Of a stretch of DNA of 64,000 nt, positions 7,903 through 39,865 are shown piece after piece. Each line of letters starts with the position of its first letter. Position 1 is the first letter of the stretch. Made by a program: the position numbers and the translations under genes. Below the pieces are notes generated by a model. The model was not told where the DNA came from. It ran no database searches and saw only the letters and a program-made list of their open reading frames with translations. The stretch spans positions 14,380,198 to 14,444,197 of the forward strand of contig NC_087377.1 of NCBI RefSeq assembly GCF_963675165.1, given 5' to 3'. The DNA comes from Halichondria panicea. Taxonomy: Eukaryota; Porifera; Demospongiae; Suberitida; Halichondriidae.

Positions 7903-9428
7903 TTTGCAAGATTGAAGCAGTTCATTGTCAACGTAATCGTACTCCACTTTATCCTCTGGGTCAGTGGATACTCTTGCCAAACCATACGACTGATTCGCTT
8001 CCATGTTCATCTTGCCTCTTCTAGCTCCACTTCTTTTCAAAATTCCCACTTTATCGTAAGATAGGTTAGCTTTTAATCTCATTTCTTCATCTGGTCGGGA
8101 ACGTTCTTTCTTTGGCTTTCCATAAGACTCGTTAGGAATTGGTTCCTTTGAACTTACACTCGACTTTGTATAAATACTACTGCCTATTATTGGATCATCG
8201 GCTTCACAATAAGAGTGAGTCAGGTCTTCATTTTGCTGTGCTGTTTCTGGATTCGAATAGATAACCTCCCGATAAATTTCCCTTGATTCTTGTATTCGTA
8301 TCTCCGGTGCATCCTCTCTCGGTTGCACTCCAGACTCAGTTTCTCTTTTCAATTTTATGATGAGTAATTTTTTCAGCACAATATAGTATGTACCAACTCC
8401 CGTGACGAAACCGAGTACCAAAGAGAATATGAATACAACAACAGTAGTTGCTACGGTCACTCCGATAGATACACCATTGGAACTGCTGTCTGTCACTAAA
8501 ATTACAGCTGATGTAAAGGCTCATGCATTAATAGAACTCACCTATAACAATATTATGTAGGACAGGATCACTTCTCCCCACGTCGTTGATAGCTTGGAGC
8601 TCCAACACGTAATTACCATCTCTGGAAAGCGGGACAGTGAATGTGACGCTGCACACCATTGTACAGGTACCACTATTAGTAGTTGAGATGTGATGATAAT
8701 CATTCCCAGTTAGGGTGGCCTCATAGCGTATTTGTTGTCTAGAAGCAGGGCATGCCACAACCTGTGATTGACAATCATGCGTGGATCAGATAAGGTATAA
8801 ATGTATATAGCCCCTGGGCCAGTATTGCATGGTAAAAATGGTATGGCTTACTGGTGGTTCCCATGAAACTGTCAGCATAACAGAAGCAGAAGATTTAAAG
8901 GATTTGGCAATATTGATTTGTTGAGATGCATGCATGTTGCCTTACCTGAACATCAATTGTGATTGTCTGGTGCGTTACCGGATCGCCGCATCTGATTTCA
9001 TTAATGTGCTGCTCCTCAAGCTCTGAGATGTCGAGGGTAAGAGTTGAAGAAAAGTTTCCAAAATTCCATTGATCACTCTGCATAACTGAGCTCAACTCAA
9101 CAGAAATAAAGGCTGGATTTGGTACAGTTTGAGTAGAAATCATACTGTCAGGATAGAATGAATGAATTTCTTCCTTAGTGACATTGTAACTCCAACGCAA
9201 ACTAGTGAGGTCCACTCCCTCACAAAACAGTCTGACAGTTCCAGGACAGTGTTCACCAACCAGATCACTCCTCCCTCGACAGTCAGAGAAACACCTGCAA
9301 CATGATTACATGCACTCAATGTTGCATAGCAAATCATGAAAACATGCAGGGATCTTACTAATTGCTCCGATTTGTCCAACAGTGAAACACAGTAAGACAA
9401 TACTCATTACCAAGTGAAATACTGCCAT
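7903..9428 (-). pseudogene. Ig/FN3 single-pass receptor with NxSY tail, frameshifted
   Basis: Exons on the minus strand: signal peptide 9428-9359 (MAVFHLVMSIVLLCF...), Ig-like 9294-8946, FN3 about 8761-8542, and TM plus tail 8495-7903. The last exon is fully open: a 24-residue hydrophobic segment, then about 150 residues with NPETAQ, THSYCEADD, NESYGKP, ANLSYDKV, ANQSYGLA and YDYVDN, closely matching the tail logic of the first receptor. The Ig exon is one base short at GGAGTGATCTGG (about 9270), where paralogs read GGAGTGAGTCTGG. Its 3' end also changes frame near 8920. It is therefore probably a recent pseudogene. Assembly error or unusual splicing could rescue it. Confidence 0.65.
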
Positions 9429-14394: not shown

Positions 14395-17300
14395 CAAAGA
14401 GTACTGTTCTCCACAAAAAAGGAGGAAATTACAGAGTCCCTCTACAGAGCACATTGTTCCTATACTTCAAGAGCTGCTCCCAGAAAGAGTGCATGTGAAG
14501 TTGACAACTGCCTCTGCCTGTATACCTTGCTTCAGAAGTGCTGACAAGTTGTTAAAGCTTAGAAAAGAAGTAAGAAAGAAGGAAAAGGAACTGCAACAAC
14601 AGGTGAATCATCGAAAGGATGGTTTGATTTACTATCTATGGTTTAATATATGCTGTATAGGGTCCTATTAGCACTGGACAGTGCATATAATCCTAATAAA
14701 TGACCTGTATTAGGTTGAGCAAACATATGGACCAGGAGAGAGACCTGAATCACCACCAACAGAAGAGGGTACCCCAAGAAGGATAAGAAAGAGAACTCTC
14801 GCTACGAACATAGGGACACCTAGGAGTAAGCGTATATGTCTCGATACCCCAACAAGACGGTCACTGCAGTCAATGATGCCCACAGAATCTTCACCTGCAG
14901 TTGCTGTAAGTTTTATTGGTAAATGACTGACTTAATTTATTAACTATATTTATAGATCTTTGTCAAGGGGGAAAAAAAGTCTCGAGCCTATATTATCAGC
15001 AAGGCATCAGGTTTCAAGAAACTGGTGTGAGGTGTAGCTCGAAGGGGGCATGCTACCATTGCTAGACAAGTTTTAGTAAACATCGATGTTTTGTAATAAA
15101 ATCGCTCAGAAAGTACATCCAGAAAGAAATGACCTTCCTTTGCTCGAAGAAAGAAAATTCATTGCTAAGAGGAAGATCTGTGGAGAGTGTGAAACGTTTC
15201 TCGTGGAATTTGTTGGCTAAAGAGCTAGAGAGCAAATTAAGCTCCTACACTCTATGGTATTTTGAGTGTTTGTGTGGACGTTAGGCGGAGGAAACGAAAG
15301 AGAAAGACTACAAAACAGAAATCATCATCAAATACTGCTATGCTGGGTGTATGTGCTGCTATATTGTTACGCCATCGCAATCAGAAAATGAATCTGCTCC
15401 AGCGAATCATCACATTGATTTTCCACAGTGGACACGCCTCAAAACAGGTGTGTATTTATTATAATTATGATGGTTAGTTATTATTATGTTTAAAACAGGT
15501 ATACAAAAGACTACAGAAGTTGCAGTTGACCATGTCACGAGACAGCACACTATCTTTCTTAGATGAGATTGGGTTAGATTATGATTCACCAGTGATCGAA
15601 TGGCGGGGGTGCATAGAGAATGAAATGAAGACAAGTCAGGTATGACCATGCATGCATGCATGCATGCAAGTGTTACAACAATACATATTATACTTATACC
15701 TTCACAGAGCACACTAGACGAAGATGCACATGTTGTACACTCTCCTGTACATGAAGTTTGCAATGATTCAGAAGCATCTCAGCAAAGCCATGACGTGCTT
15801 TCCGAAAGTGATGAGTCACAAGGTACCAATGGGTCTGATTCGGAAACAGATGCCTCATCACCAGACAAATCTTCTTGTTCTTCTTCTAGCTCCAGAGATG
15901 TTCTATCCACTACATCATCAGAATCATCATCAATAAATCTTGATGATATTCTAGGACCTCTGCCTCCATCATACCCTCTCACTTTCCCTTCGTTCAAACT
16001 GGTTGGCGATAATATCGACAAAGAAGTGAAACCACGTGATATGAGAAGTGATCATCAAACCAAGTCTCTGCACTATTTCCATTCTTATGCTGTTCTTGAT
16101 CGAATAGATCTATCCGGTGTGAGTGATATCGTGACCATACCAGAAGTAAGCGAAGTAAATTTAACCGACCTCCTCCCAACATCAAGTGACGATGAAGCAC
16201 TCGTGTCAAATTACGCAGTGTTTATGTTTCGTGTTTTGAAAAGGCACATGCCCTTTTTTAAATTCCGAGGAGTAGTGGAGAGACATATACAACATGAGCA
16301 TTCATATGAAATGAGTCAGAAATCAACAGTTGTAAGCTTATAATTCAACATGCATGCAAATTTTTTCACTATATACGCAGGTTCCTACAGGAATTGATCT
16401 CAAATCTGAACAAAAATACGAGGAAATGATACCTTTATGTCAAAGGCTGCAGGAGCAATATGTCCCAAGACTTGAAACAATTGAGAATGTGAGCATTCTA
16501 AATGAAGAAGACCAGCAGTTACTGATACCAATGTACCATTTTCATCCGATACTATTTGGTGAGCATTACAATTATACTTTGAACAGTTGTTGACCCTTAA
16601 ATGCAAATAATTGTGCTATAGGGGGGGACCAACTGACAGTTGCACGCATCAGAGGTTGTCGGAGAATAATGAGTAATTCTCAGACTGATCTACAACGACT
16701 GAAAGGCCTCATACCTGTTGTAGAAGACTGGCATGCCAAGCAATCATTTTTGGGGGTAAGACGTGTTAATTGGTGCTGTATTATGCATTTAATATATATA
16801 ATTATAGTTATACATGCAGACAATAATCATTATTAATCACATACATGCATGCATGCACATGCAGGTTGCATGGATCCGCCTGTACTCTGCTTCCTCTGGT
16901 ATCGATGGAGGAACACTGTTTCAATTGAGGAATCTCATAAATAGAAGAAATGTCAGAAAGCTGCCCCAAAATGATTTGAGTGCCTGTGAAGATTTTTTTA
17001 ATGCGGTCACCGATGCGCATATCTTGACCGCTGCAATGACATTCTTCAATATGTCATCTCTTGATGATCGACCTTCCAATACATACTTTCCTGAAGGGTT
17101 CAACGACTTAACATCTCTTGAAAAAAGAAAAGTGCTGATGCTTGCAATTAAAAAATTGACAAAAAAGTTTGTAAATGTGTCATTGATGAACAAGAAGGAC
17201 GAAGAGCAACAGATGGATGGTGTGTACGAGTATGCCTCTGAAACTCTTTCACTTGGTTTGCTTTATGCAGAGTTCAACGATGCCATTAAGGAGGGTGACG

Positions 17301-17866
17301 GGGAAAGAATAATCAGATGTTGGAGATATTTTCTTCTTATATTCAAATCAGCTCGGAGGAAAAACTACGCCATTGAAGCATTCACTCTTCTTGCTCAAGA
17401 ACAATACTTGCTCAGTCCACGCCAGGCACTTCAGCTGAAGTGGAGTCGAACAATTAATACTCATGGATTTCCGGGAAAAAACATACCTTGTGATTTACAT
17501 ATGGAACACTTAAACCGAGAATGCAAAACGGCTCTCTCTGGACTAGGTTCGAACATAACTGACAAGTCAATTCAAAGAATTGGTCAGTCAATTGGGAAAA
17601 CTGTCGAAATGTTAGAAAACTTTGACGAGATCAACCTAGTAACTAAGCAGTCCGGCTTTCACACCAGTCGATCTTCTAAAAAAGATGTAGAGAAATTGGT
17701 AGGACAACTGTTTGAAGTATCTAAAGTCTTCACAAATCAGCCTGCAACTGACCGTTGTCACCAAAATTTCAAAACCTTTAAGAGCAATATGGTTCAGTCT
17801 CTCAAACATGATAGTCTAAAACAGTGGATGATTGAACAGTTTAACAAACTACTATATATATATTAA
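14395..17866 (+). pseudogene. DUF6589-like protein, 5' part broken, 3' part open
   Basis: Pieces: 14395-14602 (zinc-binding-like CSPQ...CIPCF with a basic coiled coil), 14714-14905 (Ser/Pro-rich basic), 14956-15075, 15100-15447, 15499-15639, 15708-16331, 16381-16558, 16622-16755, 16865-17866. The last five are open and phase-consistent for about 690 codons and include GDNIDKEVKPRDMRSD, FGGDQLTVARIRG and DLHMEHLNRECKTAL, patterns I associate with the DUF6589 family of repetitive animal and fungal genes. Frame changes near 15028 and 15090 and a stop near 15283 break the front. Its 3' end is 20 bases from the convergent helicase gene. Possible transposase of an Academ-like element (inference). 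Low-complexity SSCSSSSS lies at 15870-15900. Confidence 0.6.
15643..15667. repeat. (ATGC)n microsatellite
   Basis: Short CATGCATGCATG run inside an intron of the DUF6589-like gene. ATGCATGC runs are common across the window. Confidence 0.85.
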
Positions 17867-17885
17867 AACATCATTAAATTTTACA

Positions 17886-19219
17886 TCAAAAAGAGCACTT
17901 GGCACACATACATACACACTCACAAATGTCACAACATTGGCACAGTTCATTTCCAGCATATAAATGTTCAGTATATCCATTAAACTTTTTAAAAAGCATA
18001 GTCCTTCTACATACACTCTTGTTAATGCAATATTCTTTCATATCTTCGGATAGATCCCTTGTAACTACATCTGGAACTTTATGATAAAGAATAGCATGGG
18101 CTAAGAGATGATCCCGCCCAGCACGTCCTGATTCTTGCAAATACTGTTCTACATCGTCTGATGCTCCCCAGTGCATAATTCTTCTGACATTGGAGCAGTC
18201 AATGCCCATTCCAAAGGCTATTGTGGCAATCACAACTCTAAGTTGTGAATTAGGGATTGAAAACGAGCGTATGATTTCCTCCTTTACATCAGGTTGAGTG
18301 CAAGCAGAGAACATATCAATAAGTCTAAATTGAGCCATATCAGGAGCACTCATAGGGTTTAAAATCTCTTTTCCAAGCCGGTTCTTAAAATACAGGTAGA
18401 TGTGTGTCATGCTGTCGTATGTTCGGCAGAAGATTATAGCTCTGTCTGTCAATTGCCTGTATCTCCTGACTTCTTCTATAAGAGGGGCAAATGTTTCTTC
18501 AATCGGTGGAGGGTTTACTTGAACTATGTATTTGATGTTGGGTTTGTGAGGGGACTCGGAGATTATAACAGGGTTGATTAATCCAACACTCTTACAAATA
18601 GCTTTTCGTGTTTTGATTGTGGCGGTAGCAGTTAGACTCATCACTTTAACACCTTCAGGCACCAAACTGCAAACTTCTCCAAGGTTGGCAAATTCAGTTC
18701 GAAAAGCTTTACCCCTAAAAATGTAAGAGGTATAATTTATAGTGAGTTACATTATGTGAAACTCACCATTTTGTTACACAGTGTGCTTCATCGATAACAA
18801 GGGCAACAAGATTTGCTTGGAATACAGGACTTTGAATATTATCTCTCCACTGTAAATCTGTGAGCAGGTATTCTGGACTCATGTATATGAGTTGCTTTCT
18901 ACCACTGGATATTTCGTTGAGCCCTTTTTCATCACAATTTCCCACATAAACTGTCAGTCATGGCTTTCACTTGATCTTTCATCAGTGCCACAAGAGGGCT
19001 CACTACAATGACTAATGAAGAGCCAGGTGATTTTCTGATCTCGTCGAACACTCCAGGTAGGACACAAAAACATAGAGATTTCCCACTACCAGTAGGTAAG
19101 CTGACAAACACGTCTCTACCATCTACTAAGCTTCTTACAGCTAGCTCTTGACTGGGTTTCAGCTCCTTATATCCTAGCTTTATAGTAGCGACACGAATTG
19201 CAGCAGTTAATACTTCCAT
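17886..19219 (-). pseudogene. RecQ-like DNA helicase core
   Basis: Exon 1 (19219 to about 18957) has the Q-motif region KPSQELAVRSL, the P-loop PTGSGKS and VVSPLVALMKDQ. Exon 2 (about 18945-18772) has YMSPEYLL and DEAHC. Exon 3 (about 18715-17886) has SLTATAT, IIFCRTY, IATIAFGMGID and QESGRAGRD, then a Cys cluster (CRR..LF...CQCCDIC) like the RecQ zinc site. That is a 3'-5' SF2 helicase core without HRDC or WRN extras, about 430 residues. Between exons 1 and 2 the frame slips by one base near 18955, with an apparent small deletion, so the copy is probably inactive. Its tail-to-tail arrangement with the DUF6589-like gene suggests both belong to one mobile element rather than being a host repair gene. 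Confidence 0.65.
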
Positions 19220-20205: not shown

Positions 20206-20516
20206 ACAAAGAACAGAAAAAGGAGAGGCTCTCTGCGAAGGAGGCTAGGCTAGCCTAATACCGTGCAAGAAAGAGTAGACAATGAAAACGGCTAAAATGA
20301 AGGTAGAGTTTTAATTGTATGTAGTAGATCTCTATTCAGTTATATAGATCTATGATAAGATCATTGAGATTTCTGATTGAACACCATGCATAGCATGGAC
20401 TAACAGTAGAGCAGTCTCACAACCCTAACCCTAACCCTGGTCTCCAAAGTATGTCACCTTGAATACCGGTACGCGGTATAGTTTTGTTTGGCACAGATGC
20501 TAGCTTGATTTTTTTT

Positions 20517-20628: not shown

Positions 20629-21171
20629 GGCTAGCAATCCGTGCCAAACTGCCAAATGGCCAGTATAATATTGGAGGTGGCCGTACTTCAGAGAGCCAGG
20701 AGAGCCAGTATACTGTACACTTACCATAATGATTCATTATCTTCGAGACAGAGCCGCAAAATAATTAGTCAGAGTAAAGATGCTTTTTAGCAGCAAATAC
20801 TTTCTGAAATTCAGCCTATTCCGACCAAACTACACTGTTCCAAGGCATGCATATTAACAGGAATCTACAGTACATCTAGCTAGCTATAAGATCGATCCTG
20901 CACTCATGATCGTATTATATTGACCGACTGATGCGGAAAATAGGTCCATTGTGGTGGCTAATTCATTCCTCTATCAGTAAGATACTGTATCAAGCTGATT
21001 GACAGCTGCATGCAGAGGGTCATTCCCAGGGAATTTCCCTAAGTCATAATGATAAGGGCCATGGTCACAGTGCATGGCTTTATCCCACGATCTGTATAAA
21101 GGGGCTATTCCCAGGGAAAATCCTTAACCACAATATGCATTGTTATGTTCACACCATGCACACAGAAACTA

Positions 21172-24100
21172 ATGTTTCATCTGGGCTGGATCGTACTAAC
21201 TGCCACTTCAGTTTTAACAACTCAGTCTGAAGGTGATCCTCCTATGTAATAATATTGTCACAAATGGCGCAAGCTAATTGGTTACCTTATTTCACTTAGG
21301 GACTCAGCATGCAGATCAAGGTCTTCTATATGTTGTGCTTATATATAGCTAGAGTCATAGTAATGATGATGCAGTGCATCATTATAAATTAAGCTTTTAT
21401 CTTGCTCTAGCAGCTACCAATAGCTAGTACTCTAGTGCAGAAATAACTACTAAGTAAATCAGTTGCAGGCCTCCTCCAACGGTAACTATATGAGATTGCG
21501 AGACTTCCTCGGGGTCTCTAGAGACCTTGGACTCCTGTAACTATGGTATAGTGTAATTCACATTGCTGTTTGCTTTTGAAGGTGCAGATCCATCAGTGTC
21601 TCTGACTGTTGAGGGAGGAGGGAGTCTGGTTGGTGAACAATGTCCTGGAACTGTCAAGATTTTGTGTTATGGAATAAATTTGTCACTTTTACGGTGGAGG
21701 TACAACGGGAACATAGATATATTAAGGTCTGCCTTTCCCTCAGATACCACAGCACCTTCTTCTGTTAATACTAATAATCCAGCGTTCGTAAGAGTGGAGC
21801 TGCTATCAGTAGCACAGGATCCAGCTAATCTAAATTTTGCTAACTTTTCATCTGAGCTTGTTGTAAACGTGTCAAATCTAAGAACAGAGAGTGTAACAAA
21901 TATTACATGTGGGGATCCAGGAACTTCCAAAATGATTCCAGTGGATGTTGAGATTATACAACAAACTGAGCCTGAGAGTCCCATTGGAATGAATGTGACA
22001 GCTCTCTATGAATTTGGATCCTTGACTGATGCCATTGTCTCTTGGAAAAAGTTGGTGAGTAAGATACATCAATGCTCATGTAAAATTGTAAATATCTCGT
22101 ATAGGAAACACGATGTCCAGAATTTCAGACCTTCTTGATCTATCAAGTCACACTGTTGGGCTCTGGTATTGTCACAGTAAATCACACAAGCTGTGGAGAA
22201 GTGTGCATAGTCAACTTTCAGAACTTTTCCGATGCTATTGAAGTGTATAGGGTGTCACTGTTTGCTGTTAATGCCATCGGGGCAAGTGAACTTGTGGAAT
22301 ATCCAGCCATTATCGGTATGTCAAAATTAATTATGTCTTCAATTATAGGGACCGGCAATTTAATACATATGTAAAAGCTATGAAATACCCTAAGGCCATA
22401 ATTATAATTATCTTACTATTAGCACAAACTTTTTTCAGTGAAACAAAGCAGCTTCTACTTCACACCTACTTTCCTCTCAAACGATTGTCTGTTTGTTTGT
22501 GAGTGCTTCTCAAATGGAAGTCTGGATACAGACAGTTGCAATGTGCTGTACGCAACTGACTCGATGTACAGGGATCCAATGATGATTGTTTCTCCACTCA
22601 ATACGCAATTTGAAATAGCTGAAATAACTACTGACAGAGTCTATTTTTTTGAGTTCTCTGTGTCTGTGAATGGCACTCTGGTTGTTAGGAACAGGCTTAC
22701 TGAAAAAGCGATATCAAGTGAGTATCACACAATTATAGACGTTAACTAATCTTCACTGTTTCAGGTCCGAGGTTCAGTACAGTGGTTATTGTTTTCCTTG
22801 CTCTAACCATTTTGCTTATCACTGTCGGAACAGCATTTGGTATAGGTACATTAAATTTCCTAAACTATGTCTTGCACATTAATTTTTGCAGTTATCTGTG
22901 TTGCTAAGCAATTGCAAGGGGTTAAAGCAAAGATTGTTTTGTTTATGGTATGTCTCTTTGGAATGTTGAGCTTGATTTGTCTAATTGTTTTCTTCATTAT
23001 CACTGGTGTTCAACAAGGTAAGTTCTTACTGAGTTGAATTTACTTTCTAAGATGTTTCTCTGTAGACACATGCAGTCTGGATTGGAGCAGAGCACGTGAT
23101 GCATTGGTCATTGTAGCCTTTCTGTTTGCTCTATTTGGAAATGCTCTTCTGGTCTGTTTCCTGCTTGTCTCTTGCCAACAAAAAAGTAAGGCATCTTTAA
23201 TTCTCAAATTAATAGCAATCAATTTAATTCGTGCCTGTGCCTGTTGTCAGAGTCTGGCCGGATGAATTTGCAGTTTAGTAAAGATTCCCAGACCAACATG
23301 TATAGGTAATAATTATAGTATAGTATAATATTAATTACAATTAATATTTTTGATTTCCTCAGTATCTCAGAACAAACGGACGCAATAGCTGAGGTTAGTA
23401 GTTGCTTTTCTATCAAATATAATAATTGTGCATGCGTTGCATATAGTAAAAACAGATTCGTTATAATAACTCAAATAAAATGCATCATTTGAAATTTAAT
23501 GTACTATAGAAATAACATAAATTTCTGTCATTTTAACTAAACTGCGACCCATAATAACATATGTTTTTTTACTGTGTATAGGGTTTGACTAGCAATTCTA
23601 AAGCAAATCCTGAGAAGACAAATACCGCTTCAGGGGCCAAGGATGTAATAGCACCTTCAGAGAATATGGAGTCTAGTAAAAACAAGAAGAGTGAGTCTAA
23701 GAAATTCACTGTCTACAAAGTTGTGGTCAGACTTGAGGATAGGTGGTACCTTGTGTTCAGAAGGTGATCAATGCTGTCCTTTGTTTGATCATGATGTATA
23801 AGGTGTTGTCACTGCAGGTACCCTGAATTTGAAACTCTTTTTGGCGAAATTAAAAAGGTGTACCCATCCTTGGATAAATTGCCAGGGAAGAAAGTCTTAA
23901 AGAACAAATTTGATCCGAATTTCATCGACGAACGTCGCATTGGGCTACGTGATTTCATTATCAACCTCATGAATGTATGCTTCAGTGTAAAATAGACAGT
24001 ATAGTGACTTGTAGGTATGTAAGCATATTCACACTCCCAGATCCCCGACATCCTAGAGTTTCTCCCAGTCCGTGAATTCCTGGCCATCAACGACCCACGT

Positions 24101-27100
24101 TCAGCACTCCCCATCAACGACGAGCCGGTAGACGAACAGAGAGTACAAGAGGCGGACAGGGTGAAGCTTGGTGAGAAGGAGGACACCACTGCCAAGATCA
24201 CTGACCTTGACCTGCTCAAAGTTATTAGGAAAGGAACCTTCGTGAAAGTAGATCCGGTCCTTTATAGAGCTTACAAACCTATTATGATGTATATCTTGCT
24301 ACAAATCACCTATCACCAGGTTAAATTATCTATAAGCACACAGTCATGTATAAGGTATAGCACGTGCTAGACCTAGCTACAGCAGGGAACTATTAATATG
24401 AGCCTGTGCATTTGGTATCCATGTTGATATGTTGCTAGCTCTATAGTTAGCCAATGAGAAGTGAGATGATTATATGCATTCAGCTATAATTATATGGTTA
24501 TATAGTGTCCCTCGTGCAGCGCCCTATAGGCCTTGTGACACTATAACATAACACATGAACCAAAAGCATGGTGCAAGGTCCTCGCTCATAGTCCATCTTC
24601 GTGGCTTCTTACTCATTCTGTATATGTCTCCCTATTTTATGATTGGCACATAAGCAAGCCAGGTTTGTTACGAATTGTGTATTCGAAATTTGCATGCAGT
24701 GGTCCAGAGAGTTTGTATTATTGATGTAGACTATACATTCATTATTTTGACGCGCTAGGGGCAGAAGCAGCTATAGCTGGAAATTAATTTTGCATTACCG
24801 TATAGCGGGGAGGTGCAAAATTCCGAGGGCAGTTATAATTACGCGAAAATGATAACAGGATAAACTCCCACACACCAGTATTTCACATGCAAAGCTATAT
24901 TGGTGGGTGTGATTCCTGCATGGCATTGAAACACGAATACTATAGAACCCACGAACATTTCGGCTGGAGGGCTCTGGAGCCAAATAGCAAAAATTTGCAT
25001 TTACCACGAAAAATTTCTCGCTATACAATAATTTATTACTCTTGTGGCATGTCATCACTGCACATGCATTAGTCGCCGTGTGCATGTATATAGAGCTTCG
25101 CTGTGGGATGAGAAGTTGTTCAGAGTCTTGTGTTCATGTTGAGTACCCAGGGGCGTAGCTATATACATTTACCAAAGGGGTTTCTGAAGGGATAAGGCGG
25201 CGCAGCGCGAATAATTTGGGGACCACGCCCATTTCCGGTTCCACACCTCTTAATTATACTGGTTACACCCCATATGGCTGGAGGGAAGCATTTTTGATAA
25301 GTCGTAGCTTCAGCTCTCCTCATGATCTCTTAAACTTTTTAGTGTAAGTACAAATGTACTACCAGGATCAGTACTAGACTCACTGGCCACTCCCATCATC
25401 ACTATCTTGAGGATTGGGACTGGTCAACTGCCAATCTGCGAGTTGTTTTTGTTGAATTTTAATTAGTTGCATGACATCATCTTGTAGTTTGTGCGGTTGA
25501 CCAAAGTTGCGTAACTATCAAGTGAATGTGGGTTATGTCCCGTGGTTTATCTAACACAACATAAGACCCAGCCCAACTACAACGAATTACGTGGGCGAAA
25601 TATGTCACATGACATTGCTTCTGCACTGTGATTGGTCATTACCGATTTCAGTAATGAGAACAACTCGCAGATTGGCAGTTGACCAGTCCCAATCCTCAAG
25701 ATAGTGATGATAGGAGTGGCCAGCGAGTCTAGATCAGTATCATTGACATTGACAGTGGGTATGAGCTTAGCCTCGATCCCAGGCCGCTCTTCCTCGAAAA
25801 GAGGGCCTGGTATCAACTGTTTGCGCATGCGCCACATAATCCCCATAAACTGGGGACTCCGGATATCATCGTATAATGCTCAGTAAAACAATGACGTCAC
25901 AACAAACGGAAGTGGATTGAAGAAAGTGGATAGAAGCGCGATTGTGAAGGTTTCTAGCCCGTGTGATAGCATTCTATATAATAGCTACCCTTAGTCTGCT
26001 ATGTTAACAAAGGACTCACAGCCTGCAACAGTGTGGATAACAATCCTCTGAACGGAAGAAGGCTGACAATAGCCTATATGGATAGGCCACGCCCATCTGA
26101 CACTAACCTTGGTGAAAGTCGACTCTATCAGAAAGAAATTGCTGCTGTAACCAATACAGCTCTGTCTCTAGCTAGCTAGCTAGCTATATACAGTAGAACC
26201 TCGATTATCCGGACACCTTGGTTCCAGAAGCAGGCTGGATAAGTGAATATGCCGGATAATCGAATAGATAAACCACGCCTTGATCCACCCACTTTATTGA
26301 TAAACAGCAGTGCCGCATGGTTGTCTGCGCATGCGCAGAAGATAAGCAGGCATGTCTCCATGGTAACAGCTGCAACGCGCATGCGCGTTTGAGGGACACG
26401 CCCATTTTCTGATCTGATAACAAGAAAACTGCCAAGCCGGATAATCGAGGTTCCGGATAATCGAGGGCCGGATAATCGAGGTTCTACTGTAGCTCTGTAT
26501 CTGACTTTATAAACTGAGTATTCTTTGTCTGTATGTGTTATTCAGGATATAATTCGGGTAAAAATTCAGTGTAATGGGAAATTACGGGGAAATTATCCAA
26601 TAATTTTGCGCATGCGCAAGCAGTCAGTAGCAGGCCTCTTTTTTGAGGCCTTGTGAAGGAGGCTAGTATGAGCTCTGAGGTTGGTGGCTGAGAATCAGAT
26701 TGTGGTGAGACTGCATGTACATGCAGTCTGGAGTCTGAGCATGCAGTAGAGGAACTGGGCTGACAATTAGGTCTCTTATCTTGGATTGCAGAAGCTAAAC
26801 TATAGTATTAATAATAGGCATTGAAATAAATCCAGGCTAGATATCAATCAATACTCTTGCTATAGTCTCCAGCCATTAGCTATAGTATAGTATATACACT
26901 GTAATTAAAATACAGTCTGGTGTCTGACTCTGAGCAGTAGTAGAGGAACTGGGATGATCTTCCATGGTCTCTTATCTTAATTGGATTGCAGAAGCTGAAC
27001 TAGTAATAGGCAGAATAAATACAGACTGGATCAATCTACTCGTGGTCAATATTAGCTTGATTCCAGGCCGATTAAAATACGGCCTGTTACCTATTTCATG

Positions 27101-30014
27101 GTGATAATGCGCATGCGTTAGTTCATTAAACTGAGGATGCCCTTTTTTTCTCTAGTCTATTTTCTATATATCTTTGTACATCAGCTTAGCTCTCTATTGC
27201 GTTGTTCCAGAAGGCTTTCACACTAGTCTGAAGCCAGAAGAGGCTCTCATCTACCTCTATGACGGTTGTATAGTCAGGATGTCTTACCTTGGATCTGTAC
27301 AGGATATATGGGAAGTGTATGGTGCCTCAAACTGCTACTTGCGAAGACAATCCGGCTATAGTACCATCCTAGACGTAGATGAGAGCCTCTTCTGTCTTAA
27401 AGCCTTCTATAGACCAACGCAATAGACGGCATAAGCCACAGCTTCACAGAACTCAGTCATATAGAGATAAAGTATTACGGAACGTAATATTATTCTTAGT
27501 AAACGGACTAATTTCTGGTGTAATTTACTAAGGTTTTACATTCGTAGTACGATTACCCATATTCTGTGTAATTTGAAGCGCATGTGCACTATCACCCCTG
27601 CAATAGGTACCAGGCCGTATTTTAATTGGCCTTGAATCGAGGCTAGGTCAATATTAACTTCAGCACATGATTAGTCCCACCCATTTTTCAGCAAGCAAGG
27701 GGGTTTCTGGGCAACTAGGAATCCATTAAGCTACTCCCCTGGTACCTTTACTGAGTGTATAGAGCGGAAACGCTGCAGTGGAGAGCAGCTGGAGCATATT
27801 TAAACCAATAAGATCGACTCATTATACCACCAAAGTTAATGATTAAAATAGCCTCGCTTAGTTTTGTTCGAAATAATAACAGTGCCAGACTAATCTTGCA
27901 GATTAGGGACTCGCTTTATTCATCCCAATCGCATCATAATTATATATTCTTATTCACGTCTTATTCACTATATAGCTGCACACACAACCACACACTCTAA
28001 CCACACATGCATACCTTCCCCATGCTTTCACAGGTCTACCTGGGTCGACACAAGGAAACTGGTGCTTTCTATACCATCAAAGTCCTGCAAAAGGAAGCAA
28101 TCAGTGAGGTTGAACTCACAATGGCCAAGAGAAATATCGCGATCCACCCGTTTCTAGTAGGCCTACATTACTCCTTTCAGACGAGGACTAAGCTATATTT
28201 TTTGTTGGAATATGTGAACGGTGGAAAGCTGTTGTTTCATCTGCAAAGACAGAAAAATAATGCTTTCGATGAGCCCAGTGCAAGGTGAGTAGTCAGACAC
28301 CATTTTTATGCTAAGCGGTTTATTTATGTAGCTGTATAAACTGCAAATCGGTCTGTCTGTTAGCTCTATAGTATATTATTTAAACTCCCAATCCTCAATG
28401 TACATAAAGTGTAGATGCCTCTAAAACTGCTCTGCATAATATTATAGTTCAAGCCAATCTAGCAATCAAGTTATTACCATTGATCCCACCACCGTATGAG
28501 TTGTTCCTAAGTCCATGGTGTGTGTTACACAGTAAAAACATATTCGTTATAGTAACATGAAACGCATCTTTTGAAATTTTGTTATACATTACTGAAAAAG
28601 TACCGCGGGTGCTGAAGGTGCCAAAGCTACACACATTATAATAATTATCATGATGAACATTTTTGCATTAATTAATTTTGGTGCATGTATAGGCAGAATC
28701 CAGATCACAGGAAGATCGCCCACGATTGTTTTTAAAAACGATCTATGCCAAAAGTTCAAGTCTAACTGCATCAGAGCCTTCAGCTCTCTTCTCACTCTTG
28801 CAGCTATATATATACCAATAGCTAGCGTTCTAGTGCAGAGCTATAACTACTAAGTAGAGTAGCAACACTCGGTGAACAAGTTTTGCTAAGCACTATTCTG
28901 AAAAGGCTGCAATGGCATTCCAAGTAAGCAAAACTAGGCATAACTCGAGAACGAAGCATTATTTTACAAATCCACGAATTAAAATCCAAGAAAACATGGC
29001 TAGAAGCCTATATATACAGAAACTCTTACTTGCACTTCATTAATAATCCTTGAGCAGTCTACATATACTCACACACACATGCACATGCACACACAAACAC
29101 ACTACCGTATACCTCGCTAGCTTGCGCATGCGCACCGATCGAGGCATAATGACACTAAAATAAGATGATGCATCTAAGTGTTTTTGCTGCAAAAACAATA
29201 TTCTTTTTCTGATTATAATGTAAGTGAGCAAAATATTATTCAAGTGGCCCTATCAACTCTGGTCAGCTTACATTTGAGACTTTAAATTAAACCTAAAAAA
29301 TATAAAGGTGCATACAGGACTATAACATTGCTTGAACATGTAATTACCCGTTACAGATTCTACGCTGCTGAGATCACCTCTGTCCTCGGGTACCTACACA
29401 GTCTCAGTATTATCTATTGGGATCTCAAACTTGAAAATATTCTGCTGGATGCTAACGGGCACATCATGCTAACAGACTTTGGACTCTGCAAGGAAGAGGT
29501 CAAATTTGGAGAGACAGTAAAAACTTCTGGCACTCCCGAATATCTAGCCCCTGAGGTGCTCAGAAAGCAAGAGTATGGTTACAGTGTCGACTGGTGGTGT
29601 CTGGGCGTGGTAATCTACGAAATGATGTACGGGCTGCCACCGTTTTTTTCTGAAGATGTTACTCAAAGGCACACCAATATTATTCAGAAGTCTCTAAAAC
29701 TGCACACTCACATTTGTATCACTTCCAGTGCTCAAGACCTGCTCGAAAGTTTGCTGCAAAAAGACAAAAATGTTCGATTAGGCGATCATAACGACATCAA
29801 GTTTCACTCATTTTTTAAGTCTATCAACTGGGATGCCCTGTTTAATAAGCGATTGAAGCCTCCGTTTATCCCTTCTCCGGTAAAGGATGCCCTCAAACTT
29901 GGACATTTTGGATCCGAGCTTACTGCCGTGGCTATTTCTGACGCGCAGCTACACGGGACAGAGGGTGTGCCATGTGTGAGCATTGCTGACGACACTTTTA
30001 ATGTAATGAACTAG
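21172..30014 (+). CDS. Ig/FN3 three-pass receptor fused to PX domain and SGK3-like kinase
   Basis: Fourteen exons, all splice phases agreeing, give 961 residues: 21172-21232, 21582-22054, 22105-22315, 22439-22717, 22765-22839, 22892-23017, 23066-23185, 23251-23305, 23363-23393, 23582-23763, 23818-23974, 24041-24247, 28034-28284, 29357-30014. Order: signal peptide (MFHLGWIVLTATSV), Ig-like (about 25-130), FN3-like, third domain (FFEFSVSVNG), membrane segments near 345, 380 and 420, Ser/Lys linker, PX domain about 518-608 (FTVYKVVV, FRRYPEF, RRIGLRDFI), then AGC kinase about 640-961. The kinase keeps the VAIK-type Lys (TIKVLQK), catalytic Asp, DFG and APE, but has RKGTFVK for the Gly loop, YWDLKLEN for YRDLKPEN, no T-loop Thr before SGT and no C-terminal hydrophobic motif. 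The odd number of membrane passes puts PX and kinase in the cytosol. PX would bind PI3P on endosomes (family knowledge). Confidence 0.75.
24798..25030. mobile_element. MITE with TACCGTATAGCGGG end
   Basis: TACCGTATAGCGGGG at the left and CTCGCTATAC at the right bound 230 bases. The interior (CCAGTATTTCACATGCAAAGCT, CTGGCATTGAAAC) matches 30348-30486. A better-preserved relative is at 54613-54814. Confidence 0.6.
25375..25731. mobile_element. Mutator-like MITE with 75-bp TIRs
   Basis: TAGACTCACTGGCCACTCCC... returns inverted as ...GGAGTGGCCAGCGAGTCTA. The flanks GATCAGTAC and GATCAGTAT form a 9-base duplication with one mismatch. It sits in the large intron of the fusion gene. Confidence 0.75.
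25768..26665. mobile_element. TAGCCTCG-family Mutator-like element, 9-bp duplication
   Basis: Starts TAGCCTCGATCCCAGGCC and ends AGGAGGCTA. Perfect GTATGAGCT duplication at 25759-25767 and 26666-26674. It carries a nested pogo/Tigger MITE and no transposase. Confidence 0.8.
26191..26489. mobile_element. Pogo/Tigger-type MITE nested in the Mutator-like element
   Basis: Termini CAGTAGAACCTCGATTATCC and GGATAATCGAGGTTCTACTG with TA on both sides match the Tc1/mariner pogo-Tigger pattern. Extra GCCGGATAATCGAGG copies near the right end form a short internal repeat. Confidence 0.85.
26718..27040. repeat. Imperfect direct repeat of about 130 bp
   Basis: The block around 26718-26855 (CAGTCTGGAGTCTGAGCATG, TAGAGGAACTGGG, GGATTGCAGAAGCT) recurs at 26907-27040 with small indels, still within the fusion-gene intron. 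Confidence 0.6.
27053..27645. mobile_element. TAGCCTCG-family element with internal hairpin
   Basis: Begins TAGCTTGATTCCAGGCCG and ends GGCCTTGAATCGAGGCTA, with perfect 9-base GGTCAATAT flanks at 27044-27052 and 27646-27654. Inside, 27198-27255 and 27365-27424 are inverted (AGAGGCTCTCATCTAC), making a second foldback. The apparent open frame there is a by-product of the hairpin. Confidence 0.8.
28925..29035. repeat. Dispersed repeat, second copy at 61108-61205
   Basis: Shares CATAACTCGAGAA...AAGCATTA, CCACGAATTAAAATCCAAGA and GGCTAGAAGCCTATA with 61108-61205, same orientation. A shorter trace is at 59325-59350. Interspersed element of unknown type, in the last fusion-gene intron. Confidence 0.6.
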
Positions 30015-33242: not shown

Positions 33243-33270
33243 TAAATTGGCGACAAGGAGTTAGAACTCT

Positions 33271-36200
33271 ATGATGGCTACAGGACTGCTTGGGCACCTC
33301 GAGCAATTCGATCCAGCGTTGGAGGAATGGCCGCAGTATGTGGAGAGACTCGAACAGTTTTTTGTTGCGAATGATATCACTGGAGATGGTAGTGCTGTGA
33401 AGAAGAGAGCTACTTTTCTCGCCGTAGTGGGCCGTAGTGCCTACAATCTGCTGCGAAGTCTAATTGCACCAGCAAGGCCTGCAGAGAAAAGATTTGAGGA
33501 GCTGGTGGAAGTGCTTACTGCACACTACAGTCCGAGGCCTACCGAAGTCATGCAACGTTTCCGATTCAACTCTAGAGCGAAGAAAGAAGGAGAGTCTATT
33601 GCTGACTATGTAGCTGCGCTGAGGAAGCTAGCCGAATTTTGTAATTACGGTGCTGCATTGGACAAAGTGCTACGTGACAGGCTAGTGTGGGGAGTCAAGG
33701 ACACCTACATACAGAAGAAGCTGCTAGCAGAACGAGAGCTGACATTGGCTACGGCTATTCAGATTGCTCAAGGTTCTGAGACTGCAGAGAAGAACCTTCG
33801 TGAGATGGGAAGCGAATCCCATAAAGAAGGAGTACATTACGTCCAGAAACAGACGCCGAAACCGATTAAAACTAACTCGAAGTGTTATCGATGTGGCAAG
33901 ACGAGTCACAGTGGAAATGACTGCCCGTACAAGGACTTTGTGTGTAGAGGATGTCATAAAGTGGGACACTTGCAAAAGATGTGTCGAGCTGCCAAGGGAC
34001 GCCCAAACCCGAAGAAGTTCCCTCGACATGACAAGTATAAGAAAAGGGCTGGAATAAACCAAGCAAGAGAGTCTGGAGAATCAGATGACGAAGACTTCCT
34101 GCTGATGGTAGAAGAAGTTGGAGGAATCCACAGGATCTACCAGCCCCCAATAAAAGTACCCGTGAGTATAGAGGGTACTACTGTGTGTATGGAACTAGAC
34201 ACAGGTGCCTCAGTATCTCTAGTATCAGAGTCACAGTACAAACAGTTGTGGCCAGGGAGGAGCTTAGACCCATCTGATATCAACTTACAGACCTACTCAA
34301 AGGAACCCCTTGTAGTAATGGGAAGTTTTGATGTTGAGGTTGTGTATGATAACAAAAAGGTGACCTTACCTCTTGTTGTTGTTCAAGGGAATGGACCTTT
34401 GTTGTTTGGCAGGAACTGGCTAAATGCTATTAAGTTGAATTGGTCTAACATTCACTATACCCAAGCTCCAGGTTTACAGGACTTACTGGCCAAGTACCCC
34501 GATGTGTTCCAGAAAGGACTGGGTACGTACCAGGGACAAGAAGCCTCCCTTGTAGTGGACGCTGATGCTGTTCCCCGTTTTAACAAAGCCAGACGTCTTC
34601 CATATGCTATGCGAACGAAAGTTGAAGAGGAACTGGAGAGGCTGGTTCAGGAAGGCACTCTGAAGCCCGTGGACTATGCTGAATGGGCCGCACCAATTGT
34701 GGCAGTGTTAAAGAGTGATCGAACGAGTGTGAGAATATGTGGCGATTTCCGAATGACAGTTAACCCCGTTTCTAAACTCCATCGTTACCCCCTGCCGAAG
34801 GTGGAAGATTTATTTTCAACCCTGGCTGACGGAAAGATCTTTACTAAATTAGATCTGACACAAGCTTATCAACAGTTAAAGCTTGACACCCAATCTCAGA
34901 ACTATGTGGTAATCAACACCCTAAAAGGGTTGTTCCAATACACGAGATTACCTTTTGGAGTGTCATCAGCCCCTGGCATTTTTCAGAAGACCATGGAGAC
35001 CCTGCTACAGGGTATTGCTGGGGTAGTGGTGTATTTGGACGACATTTTGATCTCTAGTGCAACCGAAGCGGAGAACCTGAAATCACTCGAGGAAGTGTTG
35101 AAACGCCTATCCGAAGCTGGTTTGCGAGCCAAACGAGGCAAGTGCACGTTCATGGCTCCATCTGTCGAGTTTTTGGGTCACCTGGTTGACGCTAAGGGTA
35201 TCCGACCCTTACCTGAGAAAGTCCGTGCTGTCCAGCAAGCACCTACCCCTACCAATGTGACGGAACTGAGGTCCTACATTGGATTGATTTCTTATTATGG
35301 GAAGTTCCTACCGAATCTAGCCACTCGCTTAACACCATTGTACAAGCTGTTAAACAAAGATGTGCCATGGGAATGGTCATCTGAGCAAGAACTTGCTTTT
35401 AACAGGTCGAAACAGCTGCTGACATCAACAAATCTGTTAGCTCATTACAACCCCCAATTACCTATTGTTCTGGCCTGCGATGCCTCTGCATACGGAATTG
35501 GAGCCGTACTTGCTCACCAAATGCCTGATGGTACCGAGAGACCGATAGCCTATGCTTCTAGGACTTTGAATTCGGCTGAAAGAAATTACTCGCAACTTGA
35601 AAAGGAAGGACTGTCCTGTGTTTTCGGAGTAAAGAAATTCTATGCATACCTATTTGGTCGAAAATTCACTCTAATTACGGATCACAAACCGTTATTGAGC
35701 CTGCTGAGTGGACAGAAACCAACCTCATTACAAGCCTCCGCAAGGATTCGTCGATGGTCATTGGCACTGTCGATGTACGAGTACGAGCTGAAGTTCCGAA
35801 ACACTACAGCTCACGGTAACGCAGATGCTTTGAGTCGTCTGCCCTTAACTGACACTGTTCCTGATGACCGAACACCACCAGAACTGGTGCTCTTACTGGA
35901 ACATCTCGATTCCTCACCGATCACGGCTGCACATATCAAAGAGGCTACCAGACGAGACCCAGAACTCTCTACTATTCACCAGTATGTGCAACAAGGATGG
36001 CCACACCGTTCCGCCATGGAAACCAGTCTAATGCCCTTTTATGAGCGACGAGAAGAACTTTCAGTACATGATGGTTGCTTGCTGTGGGGAAATCGTGTGG
36101 TGGTACCCAAGACCTACCGAGGTGATGTGCTCGTACAACTGCACGAAGGACATCCTGGCACCACTCGCATGAAAGGACTATCGCGTATGTATGTGTGGTG

Positions 36201-37263
36201 GCCTGGTATTTCGAAAGACGTCGAAGAGACGGTACAAGATTGCATTCCCTGTCAACAACAACAGTCAAAACCACCTGTTGCCCCACTCCATCCTTGGGCT
36301 TGGCCTACACGCCCGTGGGCCAGATTGCATATCGATTATGCTGGTCCCATTCACGGACAAATGTTTTTGATTATCATTGATGCCCATTCAAAATGGATTG
36401 AAGCAATTCCAACATCTGGCTCGACATCCCGAGTAGTGATCGAAGAACTACGGTTTTTGTTTTCTCAATTTGGCCTACCAGAGTGTGTTGTGTCTGACAA
36501 TGGCACATGTTTCACTAGTGCAGAATTCAAAGGATTCCTGAAGAAAAATGGTATCAACCAAATTCTGTCTGCCCCTTATCACCCCTCTACAAATGGCCTG
36601 GCTGAACGAGCAGTGCAAGTAGTTAAGAAGGGACTTAAGAAGGAAACAAAAGGTTCGATGCGCAGTAGACTTGCAACGGTGTTATTTGCTTACAGGTTAA
36701 CTGCACAGTCAACCACTGGACAATCCCCAAGTGAACTTTTGTTAGGTCGTCGACCACGATCTCGTCTAGATCTGCTTAAACCGAACACAGCAGAGAGAGT
36801 TGAACGTCAACAAGCAAAACAGGTGAAACAACACGACAACCGTGCTCGCGAAAGAAGTTTTGAGCCCGGAGATCTGGTGTATGACAGAAATTACCAGTCA
36901 GGAAATCGTTGGTTACCGGGTGTGATACAGGAAAAGACAGGACCAGTATCGTTTCGAGCGAAGATGCAGAATGGTCAAGTGCGAAGGTGTCATGTGGACC
37001 AGGTTCGGAACCGAACAGTAGACGAACCTACCGAGCCAGAAGAGGTCCCTATTCCGAATGCAATTCTTCCTGACGAATTGACCACACCGTATGCACCTCA
37101 AGCTGATAGTACTCCTGGAAACAGCTCCCCGTCACCTGAAGTTGGTGTAGAACCACCTGTCGACGTCCCTAGTCAAGGTGTTGTCTCAAAACCTGCAACT
37201 GCGATTAAAGTATACCCTAAGCGTAACCGTAAGACTGTGGATCGATATGAACCTAAATGGTAG
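33271..37263 (+). CDS. Gypsy gag-pol polyprotein (single 1330-aa frame)
   Basis: Capsid-like gag occupies about residues 1-195, followed by two CCHC zinc knuckles (about 205-218 CYRCGKTSHSGNDC, 224-237). The aspartic protease has LDTGAS at about 309; reverse transcriptase has YLDD at about 588; RNase H has ACDAS at about 735 and TDHKP at about 803. Integrase follows: the zinc domain HEGH...CIPC (about 957-990), catalytic Asp in HIDYAGP (about 1021), Asp in SDNGTCF (about 1076) and Glu in GLAERAV (about 1112), then a C-terminal module. Every catalytic residue I can check is present and there is no internal stop. Gag and pol are fused without a frameshift signal. Product: reverse transcription and integration of the element. 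Confidence 0.95.
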   Translation: MMATGLLGHLEQFDPALEEWPQYVERLEQFFVANDITGDGSAVKKRATFLAVVGRSAYNLLRSLIAPARPAEKRFEELVEVLTAHYSPRPTEVMQRFRFNSRAKKEGESIADYVAALRKLAEFCNYGAALDKVLRDRLVWGVKDTYIQKKLLAERELTLATAIQIAQGSETAEKNLREMGSESHKEGVHYVQKQTPKPIKTNSKCYRCGKTSHSGNDCPYKDFVCRGCHKVGHLQKMCRAAKGRPNPKKFPRHDKYKKRAGINQARESGESDDEDFLLMVEEVGGIHRIYQPPIKVPVSIEGTTVCMELDTGASVSLVSESQYKQLWPGRSLDPSDINLQTYSKEPLVVMGSFDVEVVYDNKKVTLPLVVVQGNGPLLFGRNWLNAIKLNWSNIHYTQAPGLQDLLAKYPDVFQKGLGTYQGQEASLVVDADAVPRFNKARRLPYAMRTKVEEELERLVQEGTLKPVDYAEWAAPIVAVLKSDRTSVRICGDFRMTVNPVSKLHRYPLPKVEDLFSTLADGKIFTKLDLTQAYQQLKLDTQSQNYVVINTLKGLFQYTRLPFGVSSAPGIFQKTMETLLQGIAGVVVYLDDILISSATEAENLKSLEEVLKRLSEAGLRAKRGKCTFMAPSVEFLGHLVDAKGIRPLPEKVRAVQQAPTPTNVTELRSYIGLISYYGKFLPNLATRLTPLYKLLNKDVPWEWSSEQELAFNRSKQLLTSTNLLAHYNPQLPIVLACDASAYGIGAVLAHQMPDGTERPIAYASRTLNSAERNYSQLEKEGLSCVFGVKKFYAYLFGRKFTLITDHKPLLSLLSGQKPTSLQASARIRRWSLALSMYEYELKFRNTTAHGNADALSRLPLTDTVPDDRTPPELVLLLEHLDSSPITAAHIKEATRRDPELSTIHQYVQQGWPHRSAMETSLMPFYERREELSVHDGCLLWGNRVVVPKTYRGDVLVQLHEGHPGTTRMKGLSRMYVWWPGISKDVEETVQDCIPCQQQQSKPPVAPLHPWAWPTRPWARLHIDYAGPIHGQMFLIIIDAHSKWIEAIPTSGSTSRVVIEELRFLFSQFGLPECVVSDNGTCFTSAEFKGFLKKNGINQILSAPYHPSTNGLAERAVQVVKKGLKKETKGSMRSRLATVLFAYRLTAQSTTGQSPSELLLGRRPRSRLDLLKPNTAERVERQQAKQVKQHDNRARERSFEPGDLVYDRNYQSGNRWLPGVIQEKTGPVSFRAKMQNGQVRRCHVDQVRNRTVDEPTEPEEVPIPNAILPDELTTPYAPQADSTPGNSSPSPEVGVEPPVDVPSQGVVSKPATAIKVYPKRNRKTVDRYEPKW

Positions 37264-38407: not shown

Positions 38408-39865
38408 TTATAAGTTAACACTGCATGGTCCATAAGCTTGGTTAGTGTTCATTTCAATCTTTTCTTTGGGTGACACCTCCTCATAAATAGGATCAGCTGG
38501 TACAGTGGGTCCTACATTTATTTGTCCTTCAGCTGCCGGGGAGAACACTGTCTTTTTACGCATGACCCAGTATGTCAAGAGAGCACCACCAGCACAACCA
38601 GAAACCATTGCCACAATGAATGTTACAGTTGTACATATCACAGCAACTTGATTGATAGTAAGAGAAATTTCTTTTACAGAATCTGTGGATGCAGTAAAAC
38701 GAACAGTTATCATTTCATAATTATACTGGGCAGTACATATACCTTCTCTTTTTCTACACACAAACTGGGAAGGATCTGGAATCCACTTTGCTTCTCCCAG
38801 AACATTGCTACAGGTGCTTATTTTCTCCTCGTTAGGAATCAGTCCATCATTGCACTGATAGCTGACGTTAGTACCCAACCTGAGAGAGTTTGATGAAGAG
38901 TTATCATAATTGATTAGTCTGCCATTGGCTGTTGACTCGGGAGTATCACAGAGCATCAAATCTTCTGTAACTGATTAACAAGCACCCTCATCATGTGTAT
39001 TACATTCATTTTAACATGACATCACCTGATAAAAGGTAATCGTGGAAGACAGAAAAACTGTCTCCCTTTGTATTCCTAGCCTTAATAGTGAGGAAATAGC
39101 AACTTGTCTCTCCTCTTGAAACCGGGAGCTCCACTACTGTTTGGCACTTCATGGAGCAAGTCGTACCATTGACCCACTTTGTTACTATTGAGTTGGCTAT
39201 AATTACAGTGATCATGTAATCAGTCTGGCAATCCGTCTAAATTAATAGAATTTGAAGTTAATTGTTATACTGATATGACTTCACTCACAGATGGTGTCCA
39301 TGTAATTATAATGCCTTTTGGATTATCAGTTGTGTTTACTGTAATCAACTGAGATTCTTCTGGTTCTTTAATGGTCACATTCACATTGAGACTTTGATAA
39401 ATTTCTGGATCTCCACATGTGATGTCAGTTACGTTGTGCTCCTGTAGCCGTGATAATTCAACAGTGAGAACTGAAGAGAAGTTACCAAATCGCTGGTCTG
39501 CCAAGCTTCGTGATGCATGTGTTAGCTGGACATATTGGAAAGGGGACTCAAGGCTCAGATGTATAGGAGCTGTGATGGTATCGTCTGGTGCAAATGAATG
39601 AATCACATGCCGGTCCTCTCCATTGTATGACCATGTCAAAATAGTGAGGTCCACTCCCTCACACAACAGTCTGACAGTACCAGGACAGTGTTCACCAACC
39701 AGACTCACTCTTCCTTCAACAGCCAGAGAGACACTTGTAAACACTAACCCTAAGAATTTTGTTAGTTTTTAGGCCATAGCCAATAATAATCTTACCAGTA
39801 GTTGTTGAAAATATTAGTCTGAGAAGAAGAATGAAGAAAATTATCAAATGTACAGTGCCCGTCAT
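38408..39865 (-). CDS. Ig/FN3/CCP single-pass receptor with YEEV and NQAYG tail
   Basis: Minus-strand exons: 39865-39796 signal peptide (MTGTVHLIIFFILLL), 39743-39289 Ig-like, 39236-39026 FN3-like, 38970-38408 CCP, membrane and tail. Splice phases agree; 432 residues, or 412 if the 60-base in-frame GT...AG segment at 38742-38683 is removed. The CCP domain has LCDTPE..NG, YQCNDG, TCSN and FVC. The membrane segment is followed by a stop-transfer VMRKK and a 45-residue tail with DPIYEEV and TNQAYGP, candidate SH2 and NxxY/PTB sites. The CCP domain right after FN3 suggests complement-control-like adhesion. Intact; likely expressed. Confidence 0.85.

Follow-up and report, generated by a model that had tools for sequence, protein, structure and literature searches.

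A candidate cell-surface receptor with an SGK-type PX-kinase tail in an Ig-like receptor cluster of the sponge Halichondria panicea

The window analyzed here is a stretch of 64,000 nucleotides (C1:14380198-14444197) from the 131 Mb genome of Halichondria panicea, a demosponge known as the breadcrumb sponge. It contains a gene, hereafter W, in which a putative receptor is very probably fused to a PX domain and an SGK-family kinase; paralogous copies on the same contig, C1, are labelled A, B, C, D, and F. In the public annotation, W is LOC135351084 and encodes one fused protein of 994 aa (isoform X2, P0001), with the order signal peptide, immunoglobulin (Ig)-like head, two more extracellular domains, three membrane helices, SGK3-type PX domain, and SGK-type kinase. 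Pfam recognized the PX and protein kinase domains, and the public entries for W and its relatives carry only the name "uncharacterized protein". We rebuilt the exon chain from the raw DNA and recovered the 14 exons of the initial annotation, from 21166 to 30014, with GT/AG borders, agreeing phases, and no stop, giving 963 residues from the first shared exon. P0001 differs from this chain by an extra 7-residue start exon (20282-20302) and by an exon 12 that is longer by 72 bases. The chain is in frame at 21172, the coding start initially assigned, but the public model starts at 20282-20302 and runs in frame into that position, with an MKK-like start similar to that of paralog A. The public model also ends exon 5 at 22839, and "GI" is absent from the chain there.

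Paralogs A (~14.0118-14.0254 Mb) and B (~14.2240-14.2369 Mb), at distances of ~375 and ~164 kb from W, repeat the complete set of 14 exons without a change in order or splice phase. The public protein of A (P0003, 980 aa) has the architecture of W, and the reading frames of A and B are complete, with 978 and 965 residues from the first shared exon onward, respectively. Exon lengths in W, A, and B differed by multiples of three in 14 of 14 exons. The gap runs in the exon alignments, counted per sequence and thus not independent events, were also multiples of three in 28 of 28 cases, including those in the linker exons E8 to E10. Two more full copies retaining the whole arrangement take the observation beyond chance. 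The initial proposal of one in-frame gene from receptor to PX domain to kinase agrees with both the public model and these paralogs.

The same region could alternatively hold two neighboring genes, a receptor and a PX-kinase, wrongly joined by the exon chain or the annotation, or connected by read-through. The initial annotation had seen no obvious start before the PX domain; W does have an in-frame ATG at 23668, which would give a plausible soluble PX-kinase, and paralog F (14.472 Mb; P0002, 551 aa) comprises the receptor and the first PX residues and then stops. However, the ATG hinges on a 12-base gap in the alignment with A and B, and the site has no Met in A, B, and F. Counted from the PX exon start, the tails of A and B have their next Met at residues 120 and 103, respectively, close to where the PX region ends. 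The absence of the ATG from the paralogs excludes a conserved start and makes a separate PX-kinase gene unlikely. In addition, only 55 and 53 bases lie between E9 and E10 in A and B (188 in W), the frame across the join is retained in three copies despite indels, and the public annotation has W and A each as a fused protein. Judged by the gene model and the paralogs, no soluble protein is predicted to begin right before the PX domain. We consider the two-gene arrangement highly improbable, and an annotation read-through artefact is unlikely on the same evidence (paralog frames, short introns, and no shared ATG). The truncation of F, together with paralog D (14.070 Mb), which has only kinase remnants ~6 kb downstream, indicates that the PX-kinase tail can be lost.

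The Ig-like exon E2 showed conserved C..W..L..C positions and weak fold matches, nearly all of them Ig domains. Modelled alone, this exon reached a predicted local distance difference test (pLDDT) score of 64, and among the best 50 of each list its weak structural matches were again nearly all Ig. A Pfam profile search with E2 gave no match. The Ig-like domain of the initial annotation is tentatively supported by these features, but no profile match confirmed the "FN3-like" (E3) or the "third" (E4) domain. The three membrane segments stood: hydropathy indicated them in W, A, and B, and the model of paralog F (551 residues, mean pLDDT 48) contained three long helices. A signal peptide and membrane anchor are likewise predicted by hydropathy and the paralog F model. 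A PDB search with that model returned no match at E 0.001 or better.

The closest solved structure to the PX region of W was that of the Sgk3 PX domain (1xte, E 1.6e-22), in agreement with its initial classification as SGK3-type. The phosphatidylinositol 3-phosphate (PI3P)-arginine motifs FRRY and ERR.GL were retained in W, A, and B. By our own count on the human numbering, we take the two arginines to be the equivalents of SGK3 Arg50 and Arg90. R50A/R90A in SGK3 are reported to abolish PI3P binding and endosomal localization (PMC4209782), and the SGK3 PX domain is reported to autoinhibit the kinase, with relief by PI3P (PMC8318898). The ratio of nonsynonymous to synonymous substitution rates (dN/dS) for the PX region was 0.22, 0.40, and 0.26 in the pairs W-A, W-B, and A-B, the lowest among seven regions in two of the three pairs. 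Genome-wide, 24 PX matches were found; the three in the receptor cluster are those of W, A, and B.

The kinase of W was closest to Sgk1 among solved structures (354.5 bits), with AKT2 as the next family (272.8 bits). The catalytic Lys, Asp, Asn, and DFG-Asp are retained in the kinase copies. Compared with Sgk1, however, W, A, B, and the fragment C have in common a 4-residue deletion after alphaC, a replacement of the alphaC Glu by Lys or Arg, a Trp in place of the HRD Arg (YWD), a shortened activation segment, and the loss of the hydrophobic motif. In the Gly-loop, readable in W, A, and B, the third Gly is replaced by Val in all three, and the first Gly is also changed in W and B. A and C carry DLG, and GTPEY is changed in A, B, and C; W keeps the GTPEY segment and the presumed T-loop Thr. 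None of W, A, and B has an intact SGK kinase switch (Gly-loop, alphaC Glu, HRD Arg, TFCGTPEY, and hydrophobic motif). The motif losses common to the copies suggest that the decay is older than the duplications or was spread by conversion. An SGK at C1:17.68 Mb (C1:17682073-17685738), of which only the C-lobe and tail are readable, has intact YRDLKPEN, DFG, TFCGTPEY, and FAGFSY, and by these motifs is likely an unmodified relative of the degenerate kinases. A search for phage homology of the kinase exon was uninformative, returning 21 records with distant kinase matches, all below 60% identity and none spanning 80% of the query.

The initial annotation proposed that recognition could feed directly into an AGC kinase. 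On this view the receptor is fused to a working SGK3-type kinase, and ligand binding directly raises AGC-kinase output, either at the membrane or on the endosome. The Lys, HRD-Asp, Asn, DFG-Asp, GTPEY, and presumed T-loop Thr remaining in W would be compatible with this, as would purifying selection on the kinase region, where dN/dS was 0.38, 0.42, and 0.58 (W-A, W-B, and A-B; 351-356 codons). For comparison, the linker gave 0.60, 0.52, and 0.56 and the membrane exons 0.67, 0.63, and 0.46 in the same pairs, with intervals that include 1. Judged by these ratios, the kinase region is still conserved by selection despite its decayed motifs. However, the changed alphaC Glu (Lys in W), HRD Arg, Gly-loop, and hydrophobic motif, the 4-residue deletion, the activation-segment changes (DLG in A and C, altered GTPEY in A, B, and C), and the 24 extra N-lobe residues in the public isoform all speak against a working kinase. 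The direct coupling was not supported by this comparison; we regard it as improbable, and from the motifs catalysis is probably impaired.

A degenerate kinase behind a PX domain that keeps both PI3P arginines and, for two of the three pairs, shows the lowest dN/dS among the seven regions would also fit a tail acting mainly as a trafficking device. In that case, the PX domain would keep the internalized receptor on PI3P endosomes, and the kinase lobe would be no more than a remnant serving folding or autoinhibition. The kinase is nevertheless conserved coding sequence over the same 351-356 codons in all three pairs, and we give this alternative only tentative weight. Still less probable is a decaying family, with the PX-kinase tails as functionless pseudogenes in progress. 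The truncated F, the remnants of D, the lack of intact receptor or PX exons in C, and the decayed catalytic motifs are in its favor, but it is at odds with three fully open frames (963-978 residues), in-frame gap runs throughout, and dN/dS below 1 in both the PX and kinase regions.

Comparison of W with the paralogs along its length revealed a mosaic. Over the upstream region and up to the end of intron 3, W was 71-97% identical to D and less similar to A and B; within introns 2 and 3, identity was 90% to D versus 46-60% to A and B. The pattern flipped from E4 onward, with intron 4 of W being 98% identical to A and 54% to D, and intron 5 did not discriminate between A and D. At informative sites, W matched D at 213 of 242 positions 5' of E4 and matched A at 158 of 185 positions from E4 to E7. 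Fisher tests of the mosaic gave p values of ~1e-56 against A and ~1e-51 against B, calculated on sites that are not independent. The switch near intron 3/E4 indicates that a receptor head was swapped onto a PX-kinase tail type, and by sequence comparison W is a recombinant of two paralog types, with head and tail matching different paralogs. Paralog F is similar to W on either side of the switch; thus, the exchange predates W alone, or F took part in it. This swapping of heads and tails is a notable feature, more so than a single fusion.

The initial annotation lacked a wider context that is now apparent: W is one recombinant member of a receptor cluster with several kinds of tails. At least 56 Ig-like exons related to W (at least 100 residues each; 26 on the plus and 30 on the minus strand) lie in C1:13.88-14.54 Mb, eight of them inside the window. 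This count comes from a search with the receptor as query, in which 89 of 120 candidates were scored and yielded 99 hits. Of these, 69 were counted as Ig-exon hits (61 inside the 13.88-14.54 Mb region, 56 of which cover at least 100 residues, and 8 outside), four were short Ig-exon pieces that were left out, and 26 were other exons. Tails were assigned to neighboring receptors in the window by strand and order, and the links between exons are provisional. Four of these tails are tyrosine-rich, and two Death domains lie behind a membrane segment; Death domains are common in this genome, with 148 matches. The public relative P0004 has a long repetitive tail. These data suggest a single family of receptor heads to which several kinds of signalling tail have become attached.

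We moderately favor a model in which W is a cell-surface recognition receptor whose cytosolic PX domain and degenerate SGK-type kinase form a PI3P-gated docking tail. The Ig-like head would bind a ligand, be it own or foreign cells or microbes. After uptake, the PX domain could bind PI3P on early endosomes, and the receptor would be held or sorted there. By analogy with SGK3, PI3P binding may free the PX domain from the kinase lobe. The lobe itself would mainly be a docking platform or a very weak kinase, unlike a normal AGC kinase switched by PDK1 and mTORC2, since the loss of the switch motifs makes it more likely to dock partners than to phosphorylate them. The sequences themselves establish the fused frame and its retention in three copies, the PX type with its two PI3P arginines, the decayed kinase motifs, the cluster, and the exchange between heads and tails; membrane topology, PI3P binding, release of the lobe, loss of activity, the ligand, and recognition are inferred from them. 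Of the parts of this model, a recognition role is moderately favored, and gating of the receptor by PI3P falls slightly short of an even chance. On a broader and speculative reading, one Ig-like head type would have been recombined onto tyrosine-motif, Death-domain, and PX-pseudokinase tails to form a recognition complex, and the PX-pseudokinase members would be a new class of PI3P-gated animal receptors, possibly for self/non-self recognition.

W resembles SGK3/CISK in its order of PX domain followed by hinge and kinase and in the retained PI3P arginines, with the PX domain nearest to Sgk3 and the kinase nearest to Sgk1 among solved structures. However, SGK3 is soluble, whereas W is predicted to be membrane-anchored behind a receptor and has lost the HRD Arg, alphaC Glu, Gly-loop Gly, and hydrophobic motif. 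To our knowledge, receptor kinases are of the tyrosine or TKL type. In other eukaryotes, transmembrane receptor-like kinases likewise combine a receptor with a cytoplasmic kinase, and some are catalytically inactive. In the Phytophthora infestans kinome, transmembrane kinases are reported to be all TKL and none AGC (PMC3019232). The Ig-domain receptor tyrosine kinases of Geodia cydonium (cited in PMC12018476) are sponge proteins with Ig-like domains outside and a kinase inside, but theirs is a tyrosine kinase and that of W an AGC-derived PX-kinase. If the model holds, such a tail, conserved in three copies, would couple recognition at the cell surface to endosomal lipids by a different route.

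Ig-superfamily receptors in clustered families have a precedent in Hydractinia Alr, where Alr1 and Alr2 are single-pass receptors (PMC11067881). W differs in having three membrane segments and a PX-kinase tail. The fuhc histocompatibility locus of Botryllus embodies a comparable idea, a recognition locus in a sessile invertebrate. The receptor family of W is clustered in the one genome analyzed and is at most a candidate for an invertebrate allorecognition complex. The titles and abstract beginnings retrieved by our searches of open-licence PMC text contained no description of a receptor of Ig/PX/AGC-kinase build or of such a Halichondria cluster, in agreement with the initial statement that no described Ig-FN3-PX-AGC receptor was known. 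In the protein database, the receptor part matched four proteins, all from Halichondria, among the 8000 best word-sharing candidates; the truncated paralog F matched itself and one other among 4257 candidates, and the PX region matched only W and A among 635. No receptor of the build of W was found outside Halichondria within these candidates, whose length range left out SGK3 proteins of ordinary length (~490 residues). The molecular basis of recognition in sponges is still poorly understood, and the 0.66 Mb cluster is a concrete candidate for it that can be mapped.

Table 1. Exons of W and neighboring features, in window positions.
Feature	Position	Strand	Evidence or remark
Start exon of public model (MKTAKMK)	20282..20302	+	P0001 opens MKTAKMKKLMFHLGW; DNA agrees, then GTAGAG
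E1, signal peptide, phase 1 end	21166..21232	+	N-terminal helix in paralog F model; D copy 97% identical
E2, Ig-like domain	21582..22054	+	C28, W38, L92, C109 invariant in 22 paralogous exons; weak Ig matches
E3, second extracellular domain ("FN3-like" not confirmed)	22105..22315	+	Beta-rich, low confidence, in paralog F model
E4, third extracellular domain	22439..22717	+	Recombination switch at intron 3/E4
E5, membrane segment 1	22765..22839	+	Hydropathy; end taken from public model
E6, membrane segment 2	22892..23017	+	Hydropathy
E7, membrane segment 3	23066..23185	+	Hydropathy
E8, juxtamembrane	23251..23305	+	Exon comparison with paralogs
E9, juxtamembrane, last receptor-side exon before join	23363..23393	+	B identical; A keeps phase
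E10, linker and PX start	23582..23763	+	Phase-0 join keeps the frame in W, A, B; ATG at 23668 not in A, B, F
E11, PX domain core	23818..23974	+	PX Pfam E 3e-10; 1xte E 1.6e-22
E12, PX end, hinge, kinase Gly-loop	24041..24247	+	Profile and structure-relative matches
E12 extension, 72 bases, public isoform X2	24248..24319	+	24 residues into kinase N-lobe; P0001 = FVKV-DPVLYRAYKPIMMYILLQITYHQ-VYLG
E13, kinase N-lobe	28034..28284	+	Kinase alignment
E14, kinase C-lobe to stop codon, without hydrophobic motif	29357..30014	+	Tail Pkinase E 7.2e-58
Tyrosine-rich tail	1945-2520	+	By eye
Tyrosine-rich tail	7903-8520	-	By eye
DUF6589 frame next to RecQ-like helicase frame	16808-18746
Retroelement frame in cluster	33265-37260	+	Reverse transcriptase, RNase H, integrase domains
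Tyrosine-rich tail	38411-38974	-	By eye; Sushi domain before membrane segment, Pfam E 4.5e-4
Tyrosine-rich tail	43253-43585	-	By eye
Death domain	48410-48754	-	Pfam E 7.9e-7
Death domain	49200-49535	-	Pfam E 2.4e-5
Ig exon	50956-51432	-	Putative head of the Death-domain receptor
P-element-like transposase pieces	62770-63773	+

The DNA past the E12 border of W, which forms the extension in the public isoform, is unlike A and B. Among the neighboring tails, the tyrosine-rich ones carry repeated tyrosine motifs such as NESYG, NQAYG, and YEEV, which could bind SH2 domains. The two Death-domain frames (48410-49535) and the Ig exon on the same strand may together form a second unusual receptor, in which the Ig-like head is followed by sushi-like exons (identified by eye), then a membrane segment and the pair of Death domains.

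Directly before the window, C1:14377419-14379523 (in the region C1:14367001-14379523) contains kinase exons of the same degenerate family. In the 9 kb upstream of them, neither a receptor exon nor a PX exon was found intact; this stretch held just a fragment of an Ig exon and another kinase remnant on the plus strand, which suggests a decayed or orphan copy. Five short plus-strand kinase remnants (C1:14077639, 14099133, 14159617, 14168451, and 14493423) matched the start of E14 at 67-69% identity. Each lies 1-2 kb from a minus-strand Ig exon, and we read them as traces of a duplicated unit. The window also contains a retroelement frame within the cluster, and the transposase pieces and the DUF6589/RecQ-like frames may be mobile elements that could aid rearrangement of the cluster.
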